Positions 1,114-9,053 of a DNA stretch of 23,940 bases are shown here, one piece after another. The translations under genes were made by a program, and so were the position numbers. Origin of the DNA: a virus; the IMG/VR virus record IMGVR_UViG_3300021197_000077, positions 1-23,940 of that record; one strand, 5' to 3'. The notes beneath the pieces are model-generated. The model was not told the DNA's origin. It did not search any database and worked only from the letters and a program-made list of their open reading frames with translations. The stretch's first letter is position 1, and each line of letters begins with the position of its first letter.

Positions 1114-2234
1114 AATGTATCACCTTTATTGTTACTCCCTACAGTCGATTGTACAGTTATGTCTCTCTGTGTCAAGGCACTATTTGCACTTTCGTAAGTA
1201 TGCTTGTGATATGGTTTCACAGAAGACACATGTGTATGCCCTGATACAGCCATGATTTGTGGCAATGGTACACCCTTGTCTATCATTTGTGTTATACCAG
1301 TTCTCCTTATGTCCATAAGACGTAGCTCTTCAGGTAGTTTTGCTAACCGCATGATCCTTCGTCCAACCTTGGACAGTCTCTCCATTGCGTATGGTTTGTA
1401 CACACCCTTAGTAGGTACGGGATGTGGCACTACCCACTGCTGAAAACCAAAGTCTGCTTTGTGCTCACGCAGCATCTCAGCTAGGTTATCAGAGATAGGA
1501 AGGAACACATCAGCCCTACGCTTACTCTGCTCTAATGTAAGCTGTTGCTTATCCAAGTCAAGGTTAGACCACTCAAGCATACGCATATCACCCAGACGCT
1601 GACACCACTCGTATGCCATGTGTACAATCAACCCCACATTCCTGTAGTCAAAGTCGCTGTAAGCTACATCAAGGAACTTGTTCACCTCACCGTGTGACCA
1701 CACCATCTTACGCTGCTTAGTTGTCTTACGCTTTATCTTGTTAAATGGGTTTTGCTCTGCATGTTCCATTTGTATAGCGTAATTGTACACTCTGCTTGCA
1801 CATGTTGCCGCATGATTAGCAAAGCTGATGCCACGTTTGACCCACCCCTCGTATGCAGCCTTTGCAACTTTAGGTGTAACGTCTTTGTACTTACGACACC
1901 CAATTGTCTGGTGTAATATGGTCAGGAAGTACCTATAATCTACCTTAGTTGTATCACGCAACATATTGAAATCATTAGATTGATAATAAAAGTTAATCAA
2001 GTCTGTGACCTTGCTGCTTGGCTTCAATCCTACAACCTTAGCTTGTTCTACACGCCAATCATCTATTGCCTTGTTGTGTTCACGTGCAATCTTTCGCACC
2101 TGTCTAAGATCACAACCGTACTCTTCACGCTTAACCACACCTGCATCTACCAGTGTCTGTGGTGGATTGAAACGGTATGAGATGTCACCCGAAGGTGACA
2201 CCCGTTGCTGTACATATCGTGGCAGTGTATTCAT
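1110..2234 (-). CDS. int: tyrosine recombinase / phage integrase
   Basis: Site-specific recombinase of the tyrosine family, 374 aa, the usual length for phage integrases. An N-terminal arm region is followed by a SAM-like core-binding domain (about residues 74-165) and the catalytic domain. Catalytic residues that can be placed are Arg213 (CQRLGDMRMLEW), Arg310 (MDIRRTG), His333 (SGHTH) and the nucleophile Tyr342 (KPYHKHT). The histidine that normally begins the HxxR motif is Met307 here. The gene is joined by overlapping stop/start codons to the DUF932 gene upstream and the primase downstream, so it is not an isolated lysogeny cassette. I could not identify an att site. Integration, resolution of multimers or DNA inversion are all possible uses. 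Confidence 0.92.
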   Translation of the reverse strand: MNTLPRYVQQRVSPSGDISYRFNPPQTLVDAGVVKREEYGCDLRQVRKIAREHNKAIDDWRVEQAKVVGLKPSSKVTDLINFYYQSNDFNMLRDTTKVDYRYFLTILHQTIGCRKYKDVTPKVAKAAYEGWVKRGISFANHAATCASRVYNYAIQMEHAEQNPFNKIKRKTTKQRKMVWSHGEVNKFLDVAYSDFDYRNVGLIVHMAYEWCQRLGDMRMLEWSNLDLDKQQLTLEQSKRRADVFLPISDNLAEMLREHKADFGFQQWVVPHPVPTKGVYKPYAMERLSKVGRRIMRLAKLPEELRLMDIRRTGITQMIDKGVPLPQIMAVSGHTHVSSVKPYHKHTYESANSALTQRDITVQSTVGSNNKGDTL

Positions 2235-3082
2235 TAAGCAGCTTCCAACTGAATGAAACGATCATCAGATACCCACTTGCTCACCTCTTGCTCACGACTA
2301 AACATGCTGATGGCCTGTGTGTCATTGCCAGTGTTACGTAAGCTAAACCCATTACGCTCATCAGCATGTGATGCATAGTTTGTGAACGCAGAGTACAATG
2401 CCCACTTGTTGTGACCACGTTGTGAAGCCTCATGGCAATACAACTCGTACATCTTTTCAGACTTACGCTTGGATGTAATCATGTCCTCAAGCAAAGACTG
2501 TATGTTTACATATTTAAGATCAGTATCAGCCCACACCTGCATCTTGGCAGTCTCTTGGTAGAAGTCACGTCTTGCACGATTTAACTCGTAGATGAAACCA
2601 TCTAACGTAAAGTTAGACGTGTTCTTTTTACGAACCTTGTCGTATTCGCCACGTATCATGCCGTTTGTGCAGAAATAATCAATCTGACCAAAGAACACTT
2701 GGTTGCTGCACGAACCATCAATGCCATGCAGTGAGATAATACGATTACCTAGCGTAGTTGTGTGTTTTTCTGTGGCAATCTCTACCTGCATGTCAGGCAG
2801 TGTAATGTCTAACATAGACCATGCACCACCTCGTGCAGTACGCCAGTTGTACTTGGCATTTGTCATCTCTGATGGCTCAAGATTCTCTGTCAGTGTGTCC
2901 ATGACACCACGGTAGAAGTCACCGTGTGATGCACAGGTAAAACCTGTACCCACTATACCCATGTATTCACCAGTGTCACCATTGATGACATACTTCTTGT
3001 CTTTTACTCGTGTTGGTTCAAACTCCACGTCAAAATCTAGGTGGGTGGGAATGTCGAATGTGTTATGTATATCAAATGGCAT
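2234..3082 (-). CDS. DUF932-like phage/plasmid protein
   Basis: The 282-aa protein resembles the DUF932 family found in phages and plasmids. The recognisable parts are an early segment ending in GEYMGIVGTGF, a middle segment with LGNRIISLHGIDGSCSNQ and the FCTNGMIRG motif, and a charged alpha-helical C-terminal half. The family's biochemical role is not established; members often sit among replication or recombination genes, as here. The start codon overlaps the stop of a 43-aa gene (TAATG), and the stop overlaps the integrase start in the same way. An AGAAGGAGAT ribosome binding site lies just upstream. The family call is by eye from motif order and is fairly secure. Confidence 0.8.
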   Translation of the reverse strand: MPFDIHNTFDIPTHLDFDVEFEPTRVKDKKYVINGDTGEYMGIVGTGFTCASHGDFYRGVMDTLTENLEPSEMTNAKYNWRTARGGAWSMLDITLPDMQVEIATEKHTTTLGNRIISLHGIDGSCSNQVFFGQIDYFCTNGMIRGEYDKVRKKNTSNFTLDGFIYELNRARRDFYQETAKMQVWADTDLKYVNIQSLLEDMITSKRKSEKMYELYCHEASQRGHNKWALYSAFTNYASHADERNGFSLRNTGNDTQAISMFSREQEVSKWVSDDRFIQLEAA

Positions 3083-5414: not shown

Positions 5415-5526
5415 TGTATTTTCCTTTCGCATAATTTATGCATACACGTTTGTCAGATGATATGATGATGACCTTTCCGTCATCACCATACACAACCCAT
5501 TTATTTTTGTAGGGAACTAAGTACAT
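5404..5526 (-). CDS. small hypothetical protein, 40 aa
   Basis: A 40-aa frame begins MYLVPYKNKWVVYGDDGKV and ends KGKYNES. It looks like a small beta-sheet protein. The ATG overlaps the stop of the winged-helix-like gene (TAATG) and the TGA falls just inside the next gene, so it exactly fills the gap between them. This junction geometry is the same as at many other boundaries of this arm. No family is recognised. Confidence 0.6.
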   Translation of the reverse strand: MYLVPYKNKWVVYGDDGKVIIISSDKRVCINYAKGKYNES

Positions 5527-5864
5527 TAACTAGCAAGCTGCTCTAGTTGACTTTGTACTTTGCGTAGTTGTACTCGCAACTCACGCTCTTGCTTAAGCAA
5601 TTTTGTCTTACCAGTATACTTGCCCTTGATAAGCCCAAGTGTTTTTAATACTTGTATACGGTATACAATACGGTTGGGCAATTCATTCATTGCTTCTGCA
5701 ATTTGTGCAATGGTCATTTCATCCCATAGCTCGACAATAACCTCATCAATTACACAGTAGTTGTATGTATATGATTTTGCACGATTCATGTGATATGTAT
5801 GATCTGCATACAATTCTGGGTGTGCGGCTTTAACTACAGGTGTGTTTGGGTTTGAGTTTGTCAT
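5526..5864 (-). CDS. putative winged-helix regulator with coiled-coil tail, 112 aa
   Basis: The middle of the protein (about residues 48-82) reads as a helix-turn-helix with a wing: MTIAQIAEAMNELPNRIVYR, then VLKTLGLIKGKYTGK. A Leu/Gln/Glu/Arg-rich C-terminal helix (residues 86-110) could dimerise as a coiled coil. This layout suits a dimeric DNA-binding regulator, and this is one candidate for binding the palindrome repeated in this arm. That link is inference. An AGGAGAAT ribosome binding site precedes the ATG. The DNA-binding call is moderately supported; no specific family is assigned. Confidence 0.7.
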   Translation of the reverse strand: MTNSNPNTPVVKAAHPELYADHTYHMNRAKSYTYNYCVIDEVIVELWDEMTIAQIAEAMNELPNRIVYRIQVLKTLGLIKGKYTGKTKLLKQERELRVQLRKVQSQLEQLAS

Positions 5865-5887: not shown

Positions 5888-6040
5888 TTAGTTTGCTAGT
5901 TTACGGTTAATTTGCTTTTGCTTACGTGCAATCTTACGCTCTCGCTTCCAATCATCACGCTTGCTTGGTTTGTCAAACTGTCCAACGTTGGACGCTTTTG
6001 ACTTAGAAAACTTAATAAAGTTTTGCATCTCGTAACGCAT
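5888..6040 (-). CDS. small basic protein, 50 aa, containing an in-frame palindrome
   Basis: The frame begins MRYEMQNFIKFSKSKASNV and ends in a very basic tail (KRERKIARKQKQINRKLAN). It has a GAAGGAA ribosome binding site eight bases before ATG and sits neatly between its neighbours. The 14-bp palindrome at 5980-5993 lies within it and is read as Ser-Asn-Val-Gly, exactly as in the 223-aa protein. The lysine/arginine-rich tail suggests nucleic-acid binding. It is otherwise unrecognised. Confidence 0.62.
   Translation of the reverse strand: MRYEMQNFIKFSKSKASNVGQFDKPSKRDDWKRERKIARKQKQINRKLAN
5980..5993. promoter_or_regulatory. palindromic operator-like site, copy 1 (inside the 50-aa gene)
   Basis: Perfect GTCCAACGTTGGAC within coding sequence, preceded by ACT and followed by GCTTTT on the plus strand. 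In the minus-strand frame it reads as Ser-Asn-Val-Gly. Confidence 0.6.
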
Positions 6041-6081: not shown

Positions 6082-6357
6082 TTAGGTGGCACTGTCTGCG
6101 GTGACTTGCGTTCCTGTAGCATTGCCCTTGCCACGGGATTTATGTATGTGAGTTTTGTCGATTTCATCACGTATCTCCTGTAATGCTCGTATCAAACTTG
6201 TGAGCGAACTGCCATAACGTACAATATACATGTCTGCTGTCGCTGGCAATATTGCGATTTCTTGTACCCATGTTTTACCATTGTCTCCGTGTTGGGCAAT
6301 TGAAACTTCATTGCCCTTGTGCTTAACATTTATGTTATTGAAAACTAAACCCATCAT
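6082..6357 (-). CDS. hypothetical protein, 91 aa
   Basis: A small protein with a beta-rich N-terminal half (MGLVFNNINVKHKGNEVSI ... WVQEIAILP) followed by a helix (SSLTSLIRALQEIRDEIDK) and a polar tail. Two consecutive ATG codons at 6357 and 6354 can serve as start; the first overlaps the stop of the GP88-like gene (TAATG). I see no catalytic motif and do not recognise the family. Tight coupling to the GP88-like gene suggests the two are made together. Confidence 0.7.
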   Translation of the reverse strand: MMGLVFNNINVKHKGNEVSIAQHGDNGKTWVQEIAILPATADMYIVRYGSSLTSLIRALQEIRDEIDKTHIHKSRGKGNATGTQVTADSAT

Positions 6358-7046
6358 TACACTCCTTGTGCTACTTGATCTGCTTTGCGTTTACTTGCAC
6401 CATGTGCAGGAAAACCTACGATTGCATCACGCATTCTTGCACACAATTGGCAATCAACACATGCTACATCATCCTTGACCACGGCAGGGCATACAACAAC
6501 CTTGCGTCCTTTAGGTGTGGTTGTATTAGTCATCTGATCGGCAGGTAAAACGGTGGTCACTGGTGCAATGCCAAGATCATACAATGCATCAGCATGATTG
6601 AGATTGTTACCAGACAGGTTGACCACAAAGCCCTTGTCATTCATATGCTTGACTACTTGTGCATTATGCTTGCTAGTCAATACGGGATAGTGTGTGTATG
6701 TCCAACCACGTTTGCCAGTGTTAGCATCGGCAAGCTCTGCATTGGCATCGGCATCAAGTAATTTGCCATCACCTGCAAGATCACCTGCTTGATTGTGCCG
6801 CCACAATTCACCAACCTTGAACGATTTGACTTTGGCAATGAATGTTGACCAACCATCGCCACGTTCACGCTTAGTCACCTTTGCCCAATGCATAGCAAGT
6901 GGGCCACCGTTAGCATAGCAGCCACCTTCGTTTGCATTGTTGAACGGGCAAACATCGGGGCATGTATCTGCTGATGTGGTTGTGACGGGTATCTTACCAA
7001 CCTTGCGATTGTTTGATTTGATTGTGGTATGTACTTGATAAGTCAT
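6357..7046 (-). CDS. GP88-like cysteine-rich phage protein
   Basis: This 229-aa protein matches my memory of a family in phages and alphaproteobacterial genomes, related to mycobacteriophage gene product 88. An N-terminal stretch KVGKIPVTTTSADTCP is followed by Cys29, Cys33 and Cys43 (GGCYA), a central GELWRHNQAGDL and TGKRGWTYTH region, then a second cluster Cys186, Cys196-x2-Cys199-x2-Cys202 and the ending VGFPAHG. Seven cysteines in two clusters would suit an iron-sulfur or zinc site, but the chemistry is not known to me. It is the first gene after promoter P1 and one palindrome, with ACGGAGT as ribosome binding site. Confidence 0.78.
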   Translation of the reverse strand: MTYQVHTTIKSNNRKVGKIPVTTTSADTCPDVCPFNNANEGGCYANGGPLAMHWAKVTKRERGDGWSTFIAKVKSFKVGELWRHNQAGDLAGDGKLLDADANAELADANTGKRGWTYTHYPVLTSKHNAQVVKHMNDKGFVVNLSGNNLNHADALYDLGIAPVTTVLPADQMTNTTTPKGRKVVVCPAVVKDDVACVDCQLCARMRDAIVGFPAHGASKRKADQVAQGV

Positions 7047-7066: not shown

Positions 7067-7080
7067 GTCCAACGTTGGAC
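7067..7080. promoter_or_regulatory. palindromic operator-like site, copy 2
   Basis: Perfect palindrome GTCCAACGTTGGAC, about 10 bases downstream of the predicted transcription start of P1 and upstream of the ribosome binding site of the GP88-like gene. On the minus strand it is flanked by GAAACC on the left and ACTTT on the right, a context shared with the copies at 7459 and 8678. The position suits a repressor roadblock. Confidence 0.7.
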
Positions 7081-7458: not shown

Positions 7459-7472
7459 GTCCAACGTTGGAC
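7459..7472. promoter_or_regulatory. palindromic operator-like site, copy 3
   Basis: Perfect GTCCAACGTTGGAC lying about 5 bases downstream of the predicted start of P2. It has the same minus-strand flanks (GAAACC left, ACTTTT right) as copy 2 and is upstream of the ACGGAGT ribosome binding site of the 89-aa gene. Confidence 0.7.
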
Positions 7473-7776: not shown

Positions 7777-8448
7777 TTAAGCTGCTTTCTTCGCCTTACG
7801 CTTGCTAGGCTTTGCCTTTGCAGGTGCTTGTGTCTTGACTTCAGTACGTGATTGCTTTGCAACATGTGACTGAAGGTCATTGATGATGTCCTCAAGGTTG
7901 AGGTTACTACGTTTGCAGTGTTCCAAAATGGTATCCACCATTTTTGTACGGGTTACAATCACATTGACAGAACGTTGTTCTGTTGCACCTGACTTCTCTG
8001 CTTTAGCAGGAGTAGCCTCAGACTGTCCAACGTTGGACACTTGTTCCGTAGGAACGTTTGCTTTAGCAGTATCGGCAGGTTTGTCAGCCTCTCGCATGGC
8101 TCTCTGTAAGGCAGAGAGTGACGTGAAGCCTTTCTTTGAGGCTTGCATGAACTCACGACACTTGACCTCATTCTCAGCGAACCACAGAGCTTCTGCTCTG
8201 CGTCTACGGTCAATTTTGTGGATTCCATGAGTCGTCAATACTTGACGGGAAATCTGACCACTATCCAACGATGAAGCGGCCTTCAATTGCATAAGCAATT
8301 TACCCAAGCGAGTGTCAAAGCCGTTGGCTTTCGTGCTGTCTTTCAGACTGTTAGTCTGCTTCCAAATACGACCAAGGGCTTTGCCCTCTTGAACCATTGC
8401 GTCAATTGAAGTTCCTTCAACTTGCTGAGTTTTTGCTGATTTTGCCAT
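7777..8448 (-). CDS. basic DNA- or RNA-binding-like protein, 223 aa, first gene of the early arm
   Basis: I do not recognise the family. The protein has an N-terminal helical region, a basic patch with IHKIDRRRRAEALWFAENE (about residues 76-94), a low-complexity Ala/Lys/Thr linker (about 121-160), another helical segment (MVDTILEHCKRSN..LEDIINDL) and a histone-like basic tail ending SKRKAKKAA. This suggests nucleic-acid binding. It has its own promoter (P3), an AAAGGAG ribosome binding site and first position in the arm. Its coding DNA is unusual: about a dozen perfect short stem-loops and one in-frame copy of the 14-bp palindrome (8025-8038, read as Ser-Asn-Val-Gly). It is a candidate for the regulator of this arm or a replication initiator, by position only. 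Confidence 0.75.
   Translation of the reverse strand: MAKSAKTQQVEGTSIDAMVQEGKALGRIWKQTNSLKDSTKANGFDTRLGKLLMQLKAASSLDSGQISRQVLTTHGIHKIDRRRRAEALWFAENEVKCREFMQASKKGFTSLSALQRAMREADKPADTAKANVPTEQVSNVGQSEATPAKAEKSGATEQRSVNVIVTRTKMVDTILEHCKRSNLNLEDIINDLQSHVAKQSRTEVKTQAPAKAKPSKRKAKKAA
8025..8038. promoter_or_regulatory. palindromic operator-like site, copy 4 (inside the 223-aa gene)
   Basis: Perfect GTCCAACGTTGGAC within coding sequence, preceded by ACT and followed by ACTT on the plus strand. It is in the same codon phase as copy 1, giving Ser-Asn-Val-Gly. Confidence 0.6.
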
Positions 8449-8461
8449 TGGATGGCTCCTT

Positions 8462-8554
8462 TCTCTATCTGATGTTTATATAAGAAATATTTAACTATTT
8501 CACTAAAGATGAATAGTTAAATATTTCTTGTATAAACGTAAGATCAGATAGAGA
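8462..8554. repeat. giant inverted repeat upstream of the 223-aa gene
   Basis: Inner arms 8474-8499 and 8512-8537 (26 bp each) are reverse complements except for one G-T pair, around a 12-nt spacer. After a 5-nt bulge on one side (8538-8542), outer arms 8462-8473 and 8543-8554 pair perfectly for 12 bp. It contains promoter P3 and reaches the ribosome binding site of the 223-aa gene. Confidence 0.88.
8475..8503 (-). promoter_or_regulatory. putative promoter P3 for the 223-aa gene
   Basis: On the minus strand GTGAAA (8503-8498), 17 bases and TATAAA (8480-8475). The layout matches P1 and P2, with the -35 box at the edge of the inverted-repeat spacer. A start near 8468 would give a leader of about 20 bases with AAAGGAG (8462-8456). 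Confidence 0.5.
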
Positions 8555-8574
8555 GTTGCGATTTTGGTTCTCAT
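8503..8574 (-). CDS. possible 23-aa leader peptide overlapping the giant inverted repeat
   Basis: A short frame beginning MRTKIATLYLILRLYKKYL follows AGAGGAT, a fair ribosome binding site, and its TAG stop lies in the spacer of the giant inverted repeat. If transcribed from an upstream promoter, ribosomes on it would open the hairpin arm, which would suit attenuation of the 223-aa gene. No homology is known, and it may be chance. Confidence 0.25.
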   Translation of the reverse strand: MRTKIATLYLILRLYKKYLTIHL

Positions 8575-8677
8575 GCGTGATCCTCTGCGCCTGTCGTTTC
8601 CCGTGTGACTGCAGGAATACCTTCAGTATTCCGAAGTTCGTGTGTGAAACTTGTGTGTATGCACGAGGCTCTGAACC

Positions 8678-8691
8678 GTCCAACGTTGGAC
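8678..8691. promoter_or_regulatory. palindromic operator-like site, copy 5 (opposite orientation)
   Basis: Perfect GTCCAACGTTGGAC. Its flanks, GAACC to the left and ACTTT to the right on the plus strand, match those seen on the minus strand for copies 2 and 3. It is therefore turned towards the plus-strand arm. Confidence 0.65.
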
Positions 8692-9053
8692 ACTTTGATC
8701 AGCCACCACCCCCCTTGGGGGTAGGGTATAATTAGCATCGGCATTGCAACACAACCTTGTTGTGACATTCTAACCTTTTCACACACTACAAGTAGTGGCA
8801 ACTGATTCCATAACAGTTGTCGTAGACAAGTAACCCATTGATAACTCACATACTTTGTATGATCTGGTGGACTGACACACAATTGCTGCTCTCACCACAC
8901 GCCATGACGTTGCATCATACGTGCAATTGCGCAGTGAATAGGCGGTAGGCATGGGCCACCCCCCGTAGGTGCGTATATATATACACATAAATACACAGAT
9001 CAGGAAAAATGAAGTGTTAACCACATTACATATATAGTGGTTTACAGATGTAG

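Follow-up and report, generated by a model that had tools for sequence, protein, structure and literature searches.

Perfect short inverted repeats, apparently constrained as DNA, form a dense array in and around the first early gene of HMO-2011-type marine phages

Phages of the HMO-2011 type are described as ranking with the most abundant ocean phages (PMC6918029). We analyze a hairpin-rich early region in one of these phages and in its relatives. The window, meaning the whole stretch of DNA under analysis, comprises 23,940 nucleotides of IMG/VR virus record IMGVR_UViG_3300021197_000077 and represents part of a marine phage of the HMO-2011 type. This assignment draws on the identity of the portal (92% to CRP-345, 81% to CRP-1, and 79% to HMO-2011) and of the primase (72%, 72%, and 62%, respectively), and on a gene order that agrees with all 3 phages. 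The label of cobavirus was considered and is wrong; the literature leads to the HMO-2011 type instead. Searches of the literature found nothing on how HMO-2011-type phages start replication or switch on their genes, and no report that joins HMO-2011 with a hairpin.

Central to this analysis is early gene 1, which corresponds to gp01 of the Roseobacter phages (roseophages) CRP-1 and CRP-345. The gene heads the early arm and adjoins a gap of ~890 bp that divides the early and late arms. At the equivalent position of HMO-2011 lies gp74, which looks like a remote relative of gene 1 (19% identity, with motifs in common); this kinship rests on alignment and position, as tblastn missed gp74. The gp1 family has no match in Pfam or PHROGs, and no homologue was found in the collection of bacterial genomes searched. 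Elsewhere in the early arm, positions 6357–7046 encode a DUF7227/GP88-like protein (Pfam match 9e-86). Gene 1 carries the following features:

7777–8448, minus strand: early gene 1, gp01 family, 223 aa (homologue searches, stem counts, AlphaFold2)
7890–7903: stem of 6 bp, loop 2
7925–7944: stem of 8 bp, loop 4, AAAATGGT/ACCATTTT; in relatives TGATGGT/ACCATCA or CAATTGT/ACAATTG
7967–7983: stem of 7 bp, loop 3; compensatory ACAGAAC/GTTCTGT versus ACTGAAC/GTTCAGT (codon alignment)
8043–8055: stem of 5 bp, loop 3, GTTCC GTA GGAAC (sequence)
8100–8118: stem of 7 bp, loop 5
8126–8144: stem of 6 bp, loop 7; position kept in at least 11 homologues
8185–8200: stem of 6 bp, loop 4, CAGAGC TTCT GCTCTG
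8233–8247: stem of 6 bp, loop 3
8285–8300: stem of 6 bp, loop 4
8317–8331: stem of 6 bp, loop 3; a stem here in every one of the 21 sequences in the first codon alignment
8344–8358: stem of 6 bp, loop 3
8375–8387: stem of 5 bp, loop 3, AGGGC TTT GCCCT (sequence)
8406–8420: stem of 6 bp, loop 3; in relatives TTGAAG/CTTCAA, TAGTTG/CAACTA, or AAGTTG/CAACTT

A dense array of perfect inverted repeats of 6–8 bp, with loops of ~3–5 nt, occupies gene 1 and its flanks, far beyond chance. With perfect stems counted from 6 bp upward and loops from 2 to 8 nt, gene 1 holds 12; 5000 synonymous shuffles, which keep the protein and the codon counts fixed, average 1.21 ± 1.06 and never go above 6. The first-pass annotation had noticed these stems and reckoned that one or two would arise at random, a figure that the shuffle mean bears out, and its observation survives the codon shuffling that it proposed as a check. 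The positions it listed were confirmed, the 5-bp stems at 8043–8055 and 8375–8387 among them, except that the stem it placed at 8175–8190 truly lies at 8185–8200. The same annotation suggested a comparison with the other genes of the phage, and here too gene 1 stands alone: of the 36 genes in the window, it is the only one to exceed its own shuffle maximum. Some other early minus-strand genes show a weaker excess, namely 325–1113 (5 stems versus 1.1) and 2234–3082 (4 versus 0.8).

The array is widespread across relatives. In viral contigs, 87 distinct gene 1 homologues carry 813 stems versus 166 expected, a pooled count that overstates independence since homologues and pairs share ancestry; the earlier expectation that relatives might lack the stems was not borne out. 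Individually, 79 of the 87 surpass every one of 20 of their own synonymous shuffles. Nothing we found speaks for an artefact of chance, codon usage, or composition, and such an artefact is extremely improbable, given that shuffles preserving protein and codon usage reach at most 6 stems in all trials and that the excess is conserved in these 79 relatives.

To regard the array as a property of one gene proved too narrow. Stem density per 250 bp reaches its maximum in gene 1, is high from ~750 bp upstream to several kb downstream, and declines along the early arm. Whole arms behave accordingly: early-arm counts are 78 stems versus 34.6 in CRP-1, 63 versus 33 in CRP-345, and 69 versus 32 in HMO-2011, and late-arm counts are 67 versus 69, 88 versus 73, and 36 versus 31.6, respectively. 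The sister phages CRP-2, CRP-3, CRP-207, and HTVC033P have no gene 1 homologue that we could find and no comparable stem excess. In gene 1 of a few homologues (L125 and L126), the excess is nearly gone; hairpins in gene 1 are therefore not indispensable. Two extremes were seen along the way. A late gene of CRP-345 (L085, 25229–27163) has an unusual excess for a late gene, 15 stems versus 5, and the 2 kb immediately following gene 1 in the distant homologue L057 have the highest seen, 40 stems versus 5.6 expected.

The noncoding region upstream of gene 1 combines variable stems with conserved elements:

8456–8462, minus strand: Shine-Dalgarno-like AAAGGAG of gene 1 (sequence)
8463–8553: element B, a long conserved hairpin just ahead of the ribosome site, with strongly covarying arms
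8579–8665, minus strand: element A, a conserved GCGCAGAGGAT-type motif flanking a variable 7-bp stem at 8614–8632
8708–8722: intergenic stem of 6 bp, loop 3
8750–8764: intergenic stem of 6 bp, loop 3
8784–8797: intergenic stem of 6 bp, loop 2; sequence varies among relatives
8799–8819, minus strand: conserved CAACTGTTATGnAATCAGTTG hairpin, also in HMO-2011
8972–9052 (approximate), minus strand: very conserved block GTAAACCACTATATATGTAATGTGGTTAACACTTCATTTTTCCTGATCTGTGTA, partly common to HMO-2011; hairpin density drops beyond it

The seven-pair stem of element A is nearly always fully paired, several of its pairs take all four Watson-Crick types, and the motifs around it are invariant. The CAACTGTTATGnAATCAGTTG hairpin and the TTAACAC-CATTTTTCCTGATCTGTGTA block are partly common to HMO-2011. 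Promoter assignment gave no confident candidate. A replication origin was not located; GC skew does not point to one, since its sign changes where gene orientation changes.

Stems are kept in place as their sequences change. In a codon alignment of 21 sequences, stem places are retained, stem sequences differ, and shifts by a few bases are frequent. Among 24 recurrent stems, 67 of 143 base pairs occur as at least two Watson-Crick types. Compensatory synonymous changes, which the first-pass annotation had suggested seeking in homologues, are present, as in the two forms of the stem at 7967–7983. Enrichment reaches 11-fold among loops of 2–5 nt and is absent at 6 and 8 nt, a preference expected of real hairpins with tight turns.

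Rates of change carry the same signal; the pairs behind them are related by descent and do not form independent samples. For the two bins of lowest divergence, synonymous change at four-fold sites is 0.032 and 0.049 in stems versus 0.084 and 0.168 outside (about three times slower among close relatives). In coding sequence, the compensated share of changes grows as divergence increases, from 0/15 to 7/58, 55/142, and 446/1082. The noncoding flank differs at the lowest divergence: below 6%, 48 of 66 changed stem sites are already compensated, versus the 0 of 15 in coding sequence. Between the near-identical genomes L168 and L171, entire hairpins in this flank have been swapped.

Does the pairing matter in RNA or in DNA? 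In gene 1, stems with one inner G-U pair are not enriched (1.08-fold) versus 5.7-fold for Watson-Crick stems; in the upstream noncoding DNA the values are 1.37 and 6.6. Defects in conserved stems comprise 13 distinct G-U and 9 A-C. Synonymous transitions that create G-U run at 0.33–0.37 of the outside rate, with those that create A-C equally suppressed, so the constraint on gene 1 is strand-symmetric; in the better-sampled bins of the noncoding flank, both kinds are down to 0.25–0.42. RNA phages served as positive controls. Their G-U stems are enriched 1.81-fold, and in the MS2 group transitions to G-U run at 0.90–1.20 and those to A-C at 0.45–0.51. Acceptance of G-U on the transcribed strand, the mark of selected mRNA structure, was not seen in gene 1 or the upstream region; a strand-symmetric, Watson-Crick-only constraint, the mark of selected DNA secondary structure, was. 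The hairpin constraint thus seems, from these substitution patterns, to act on DNA and not on mRNA. This evidence is strong, not absolute: a very short RNA stem intolerant of G-U would look alike.

Loops add a further line of evidence. Six hairpins have the same flanks and arms in the relatives compared, and the loop of one relative is the exact reverse complement of the loop of the other (GTA/TAC, CTTCA/TGAAG, AGA/TCT, ATA/TAT, GAA/TTC, and GTA/TAC). The AGA/TCT case lies inside gene 1, in the stem at 8317–8331 of L137 versus L102; another aligned difference block reads CACCAC-CTTCA-GTGGTC in L143 versus CACCAC-TGAAG-GTGGTC in L149. Nine three-nt loops differ in every position; 5 of the 9 are reverse complements, against a chance value of ~1/27 that was reasoned and not simulated. 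Such inversions most easily arise by DNA-level folding, through cruciform cutting or through template switching, of which loop (spacer) inversion is a product according to PMC8604942. They back DNA folding and also keep a mutational rival alive.

Of the options raised by the first-pass annotation, structured RNA is disfavored: G-U is treated as a mismatch by tests of the same kinds that detect folding in RNA phages. Folding of single-stranded DNA gains from the strand symmetry and the loop inversions. Protein-binding beads may exist; with no sequence common to the stems, a protein that binds them would have to read shape. The GTCCAACGTTGGAC palindrome described below is a separate matter, a probable protein site. 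Taken together, the feature is genuine and conserved, and it seems to be constrained as DNA.

Two rival explanations deserve weight. Hairpins could fold in the nascent early transcript, guarding it against Rho or nucleases or guiding antitermination. The excess does track the early arm and fall away from its start; element A, a covarying stem flanked by conserved motifs that stay unpaired, resembles an RNA motif; and elsewhere among the early genes, stems of 7 bp that include one G-U show some enrichment (63 versus 32.6), those with one A-C none, such that RNA may have a role there. For gene 1 and its upstream region, however, static counts, defects in conserved stems, and substitution rates all treat G-U as a mismatch, although such tests do reveal folding in RNA phages, and loop sequences are inverted between relatives as if the strand were irrelevant. 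Intrinsic terminators (a G+C-rich stem with a T run) number only one inside gene 1, on the coding strand, and an Rfam search (E up to 1) returned no match at gathering score. A known RNA family was rejected as a candidate: the sole sub-threshold match is the plant microRNA precursor MIR1120 to the long hairpin at 8460–8556 (35 versus 86 bits), taken as an artefact of shape and probably a match merely between two long near-perfect hairpins. We consider structure at the mRNA level improbable.

The main rival is mutational. Template-switch mutagenesis may keep perfecting imperfect inverted repeats in this region, leaving hairpins without function; the mechanism is described in PMC8794818 and PMC8604942. 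It would explain Watson-Crick-only pairing, tight loops, the lack of a common sequence, and occurrence in coding and noncoding DNA alike, and the spacer inversions that mark it are present. Immediate compensation in the noncoding flank, together with loop inversion, shows these hairpins to be shaped by template switching or recombination as well. Yet the compensated share in coding sequence climbs with divergence from zero, as two-step compensation predicts. Late genes of the same genomes show little or no excess, the four sister phages have none that is comparable, although they belong to this group too, and switching would have to be faster than point mutation at hairpins of 6 bp that number in the dozens. 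As a full account, template switching is unlikely, if less so than a role in mRNA.

A second class of repeat in this region behaves differently from the stems. The first-pass annotation overlooked a 16-bp palindrome inside gene 1, whose core recurs in intergenic gaps; GTCCAACGTTGGAC is exact at 5980, 7067, 7459, 8025, and 8678, where 0.05 occurrences with up to 2 mismatches are expected:

8024–8039: palindrome TGTCCAACGTTGGACA in gene 1, spanning part of the codons for SNVGQ of a predicted linker; probable gp1 binding site
8678–8691: palindrome GTCCAACGTTGGAC, upstream of gene 1
7459–7472: palindrome GTCCAACGTTGGAC, intergenic gap
7067–7080: palindrome GTCCAACGTTGGAC, intergenic gap
5980–5993: palindrome GTCCAACGTTGGAC, intergenic gap

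Unlike the stems, the GTCCAACGTTGGAC palindrome is a probable protein-binding site conserved in sequence. It occurs in two classes. In 8 of the first 69 homologues, the gene encodes an SD(V/I)GQ peptide and carries a GTCCGA..TCGGAC palindrome; the codon after asparagine is GTT in 52 of 52 SNVGQ sequences, and SDVGQ sequences use GTC in 6 of 6. Intergenic palindromes belong, with few exceptions, to the class of the in-gene copy of their own genome, a concerted change. A tree indicates at least 5 independent class switches.

Only three columns of gp1 cleanly split the classes: 112, 119, and 139, the last being the palindrome itself. At column 112, 10 of 10 GC-class genomes have S, and T is present in 67 of the 71 genomes of the AT class; arginine at column 119 occurs mostly in the AT class. 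Columns 112 and 119 fall within a helix at 110–121 in the AlphaFold2 model, which is of low to moderate confidence (pLDDT 62.7, pTM 0.36) and shows a helical N-terminal domain, a disordered linker, and a two-helix C-terminus. The linker, 124–164, is the low-confidence part in which SNVGQ lies. The fold matches no PDB structure, and the sequence has no relative in the PDB. Among supported independent pairs, residue 112 follows palindrome class 5:0 (p 0.06, not significant alone); the window phage itself breaks the rule, with S112, R119, and AT-class palindromes. As palindrome class and residue 112 change in concert, gp1 is probably a DNA-binding protein that recognizes GTCCRA-N2-TYGGAC via the predicted helix 110–121. 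A small early protein at 5526–5864 has very weak winged-helix matches (HrcA-type, HTH_20, and replication initiation O-like), and a palindrome sits ~115 bp upstream of its start. As a palindrome binder, it has too few GC-class orthologues for the class comparison.

Several known systems resemble parts of this picture. Single-stranded DNA viruses have pervasive conserved secondary structure in their coding regions; as in gene 1, pairing at the DNA level constrains synonymous sites through coding sequence. Here, the setting is a tailed dsDNA phage, only the early region is affected, and the hairpins are separate, 6–8 bp long, and very tightly looped. RNA genomes of the MS2 group likewise hold many selected hairpins within coding genes, but they tolerate G-U, which the gene 1 array does not. 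Promoters of the phage N4 virion RNA polymerase are DNA hairpins with stems of 5–7 bp and 3-nt loops near early genes; N4 has few such sites, their sequence is conserved, and the phage encodes the polymerase. The likeness is in small-loop DNA hairpins near early genes. The gene 1 array has at least 12 stems unrelated in sequence, varying by site and by relative, and no RNA polymerase is annotated in CRP-1, CRP-345, or HMO-2011; conserved hairpin sequence with a cognate virion polymerase, the N4 hallmark, was not found. The lambda O gene contains the origin inside its linker-coding part. Gene 1 is similar in that its protein has a probable DNA-binding N-terminal domain, as modeled, and its putative recognition site, at 8024–8039, lies in the linker-coding stretch of the gene. 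It differs in that clustered iterons are absent: gene 1 has one palindrome, and the others are dispersed over several kb, 0.2–2 kb away.

Dispersal recalls the stoperators of mycobacteriophages, where, according to PMC9283540, one phage protein uses many sites dispersed over the genome. The intergenic palindromes at 5980, 7067, 7459, and 8678 are putative sites for a single protein and change in concert within a genome; in contrast to stoperators, they are palindromes confined to the early region, with no known repressor activity. Inverted repeats homogenized by template switching are also perfect short hairpins with spacer inversions, as in the gene 1 region. Those described in PMC8604942 and PMC8794818 are scattered mutation events, whereas the array here is dense and conserved, and synonymous change within it is slowed.

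We favor, about midway between doubt and acceptance, a control region of DNA hairpins, possibly an origin, built around the gene of a regulator that would bind its own gene; the mechanism is inferred. The segment from ~-750 to +2500 around gene 1 would be the early control region and perhaps the replication origin. Its DNA would turn single-stranded or strongly supercoiled, and hairpins would form as extruded cruciforms or as folds of a displaced strand, selected for their shape. They could hold the region open, be recognized by a replication or recombination protein that reads structure, or shield the exposed single strand. The palindromes would be occupied by gp1, acting as initiator or as repressor. 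A more specific version is tentative, and we think it somewhat likelier to fail than to hold: tens of sequence-independent DNA hairpins, coding and intergenic, around an origin-like early region would form a functional code of DNA shape read by a structure-specific protein, with the protein of the first gene as the sequence-specific binder of the region.

If true, DNA folding that constrains the synonymous sites of a coding gene would be unexpected in a dsDNA phage. It would imply that the region passes through a folded single-stranded or cruciform stage, most simply as a replication origin. The joint switching of a palindrome base and gp1 residue 112 provides a rule of recognition that can be tested directly, in a family of proteins without any known match.

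Variants of the palindrome are found in other places. A one-base variant, GTCCAACCTTGGAC, lies at 1361–1374 inside the integrase gene (1110–2234) of the window; likewise, GTCCAAGGTTGGAC lies within the integrase genes of CRP-1 (6868) and CRP-345 (7079). HMO-2011 is without the GTCCAACGTTGGAC palindrome and has its own inverted repeat, AGTCCGACAGCGGACT, of the form GTCC-N6-GGAC, at four places around gp74:

L090, 3877–3894: HMO-2011 AGTCCGACAGCGGACT site
L090, 4807–4822: HMO-2011 AGTCCGACAGCGGACT site
L089, near 60: HMO-2011 AGTCCGACAGCGGACT site
L089, near 1260: HMO-2011 AGTCCGACAGCGGACT site

In the relative L174, most palindromes take one asymmetric form, GTCCGACGTTGGAC, and gp1 has S112 and R119, as if between classes.
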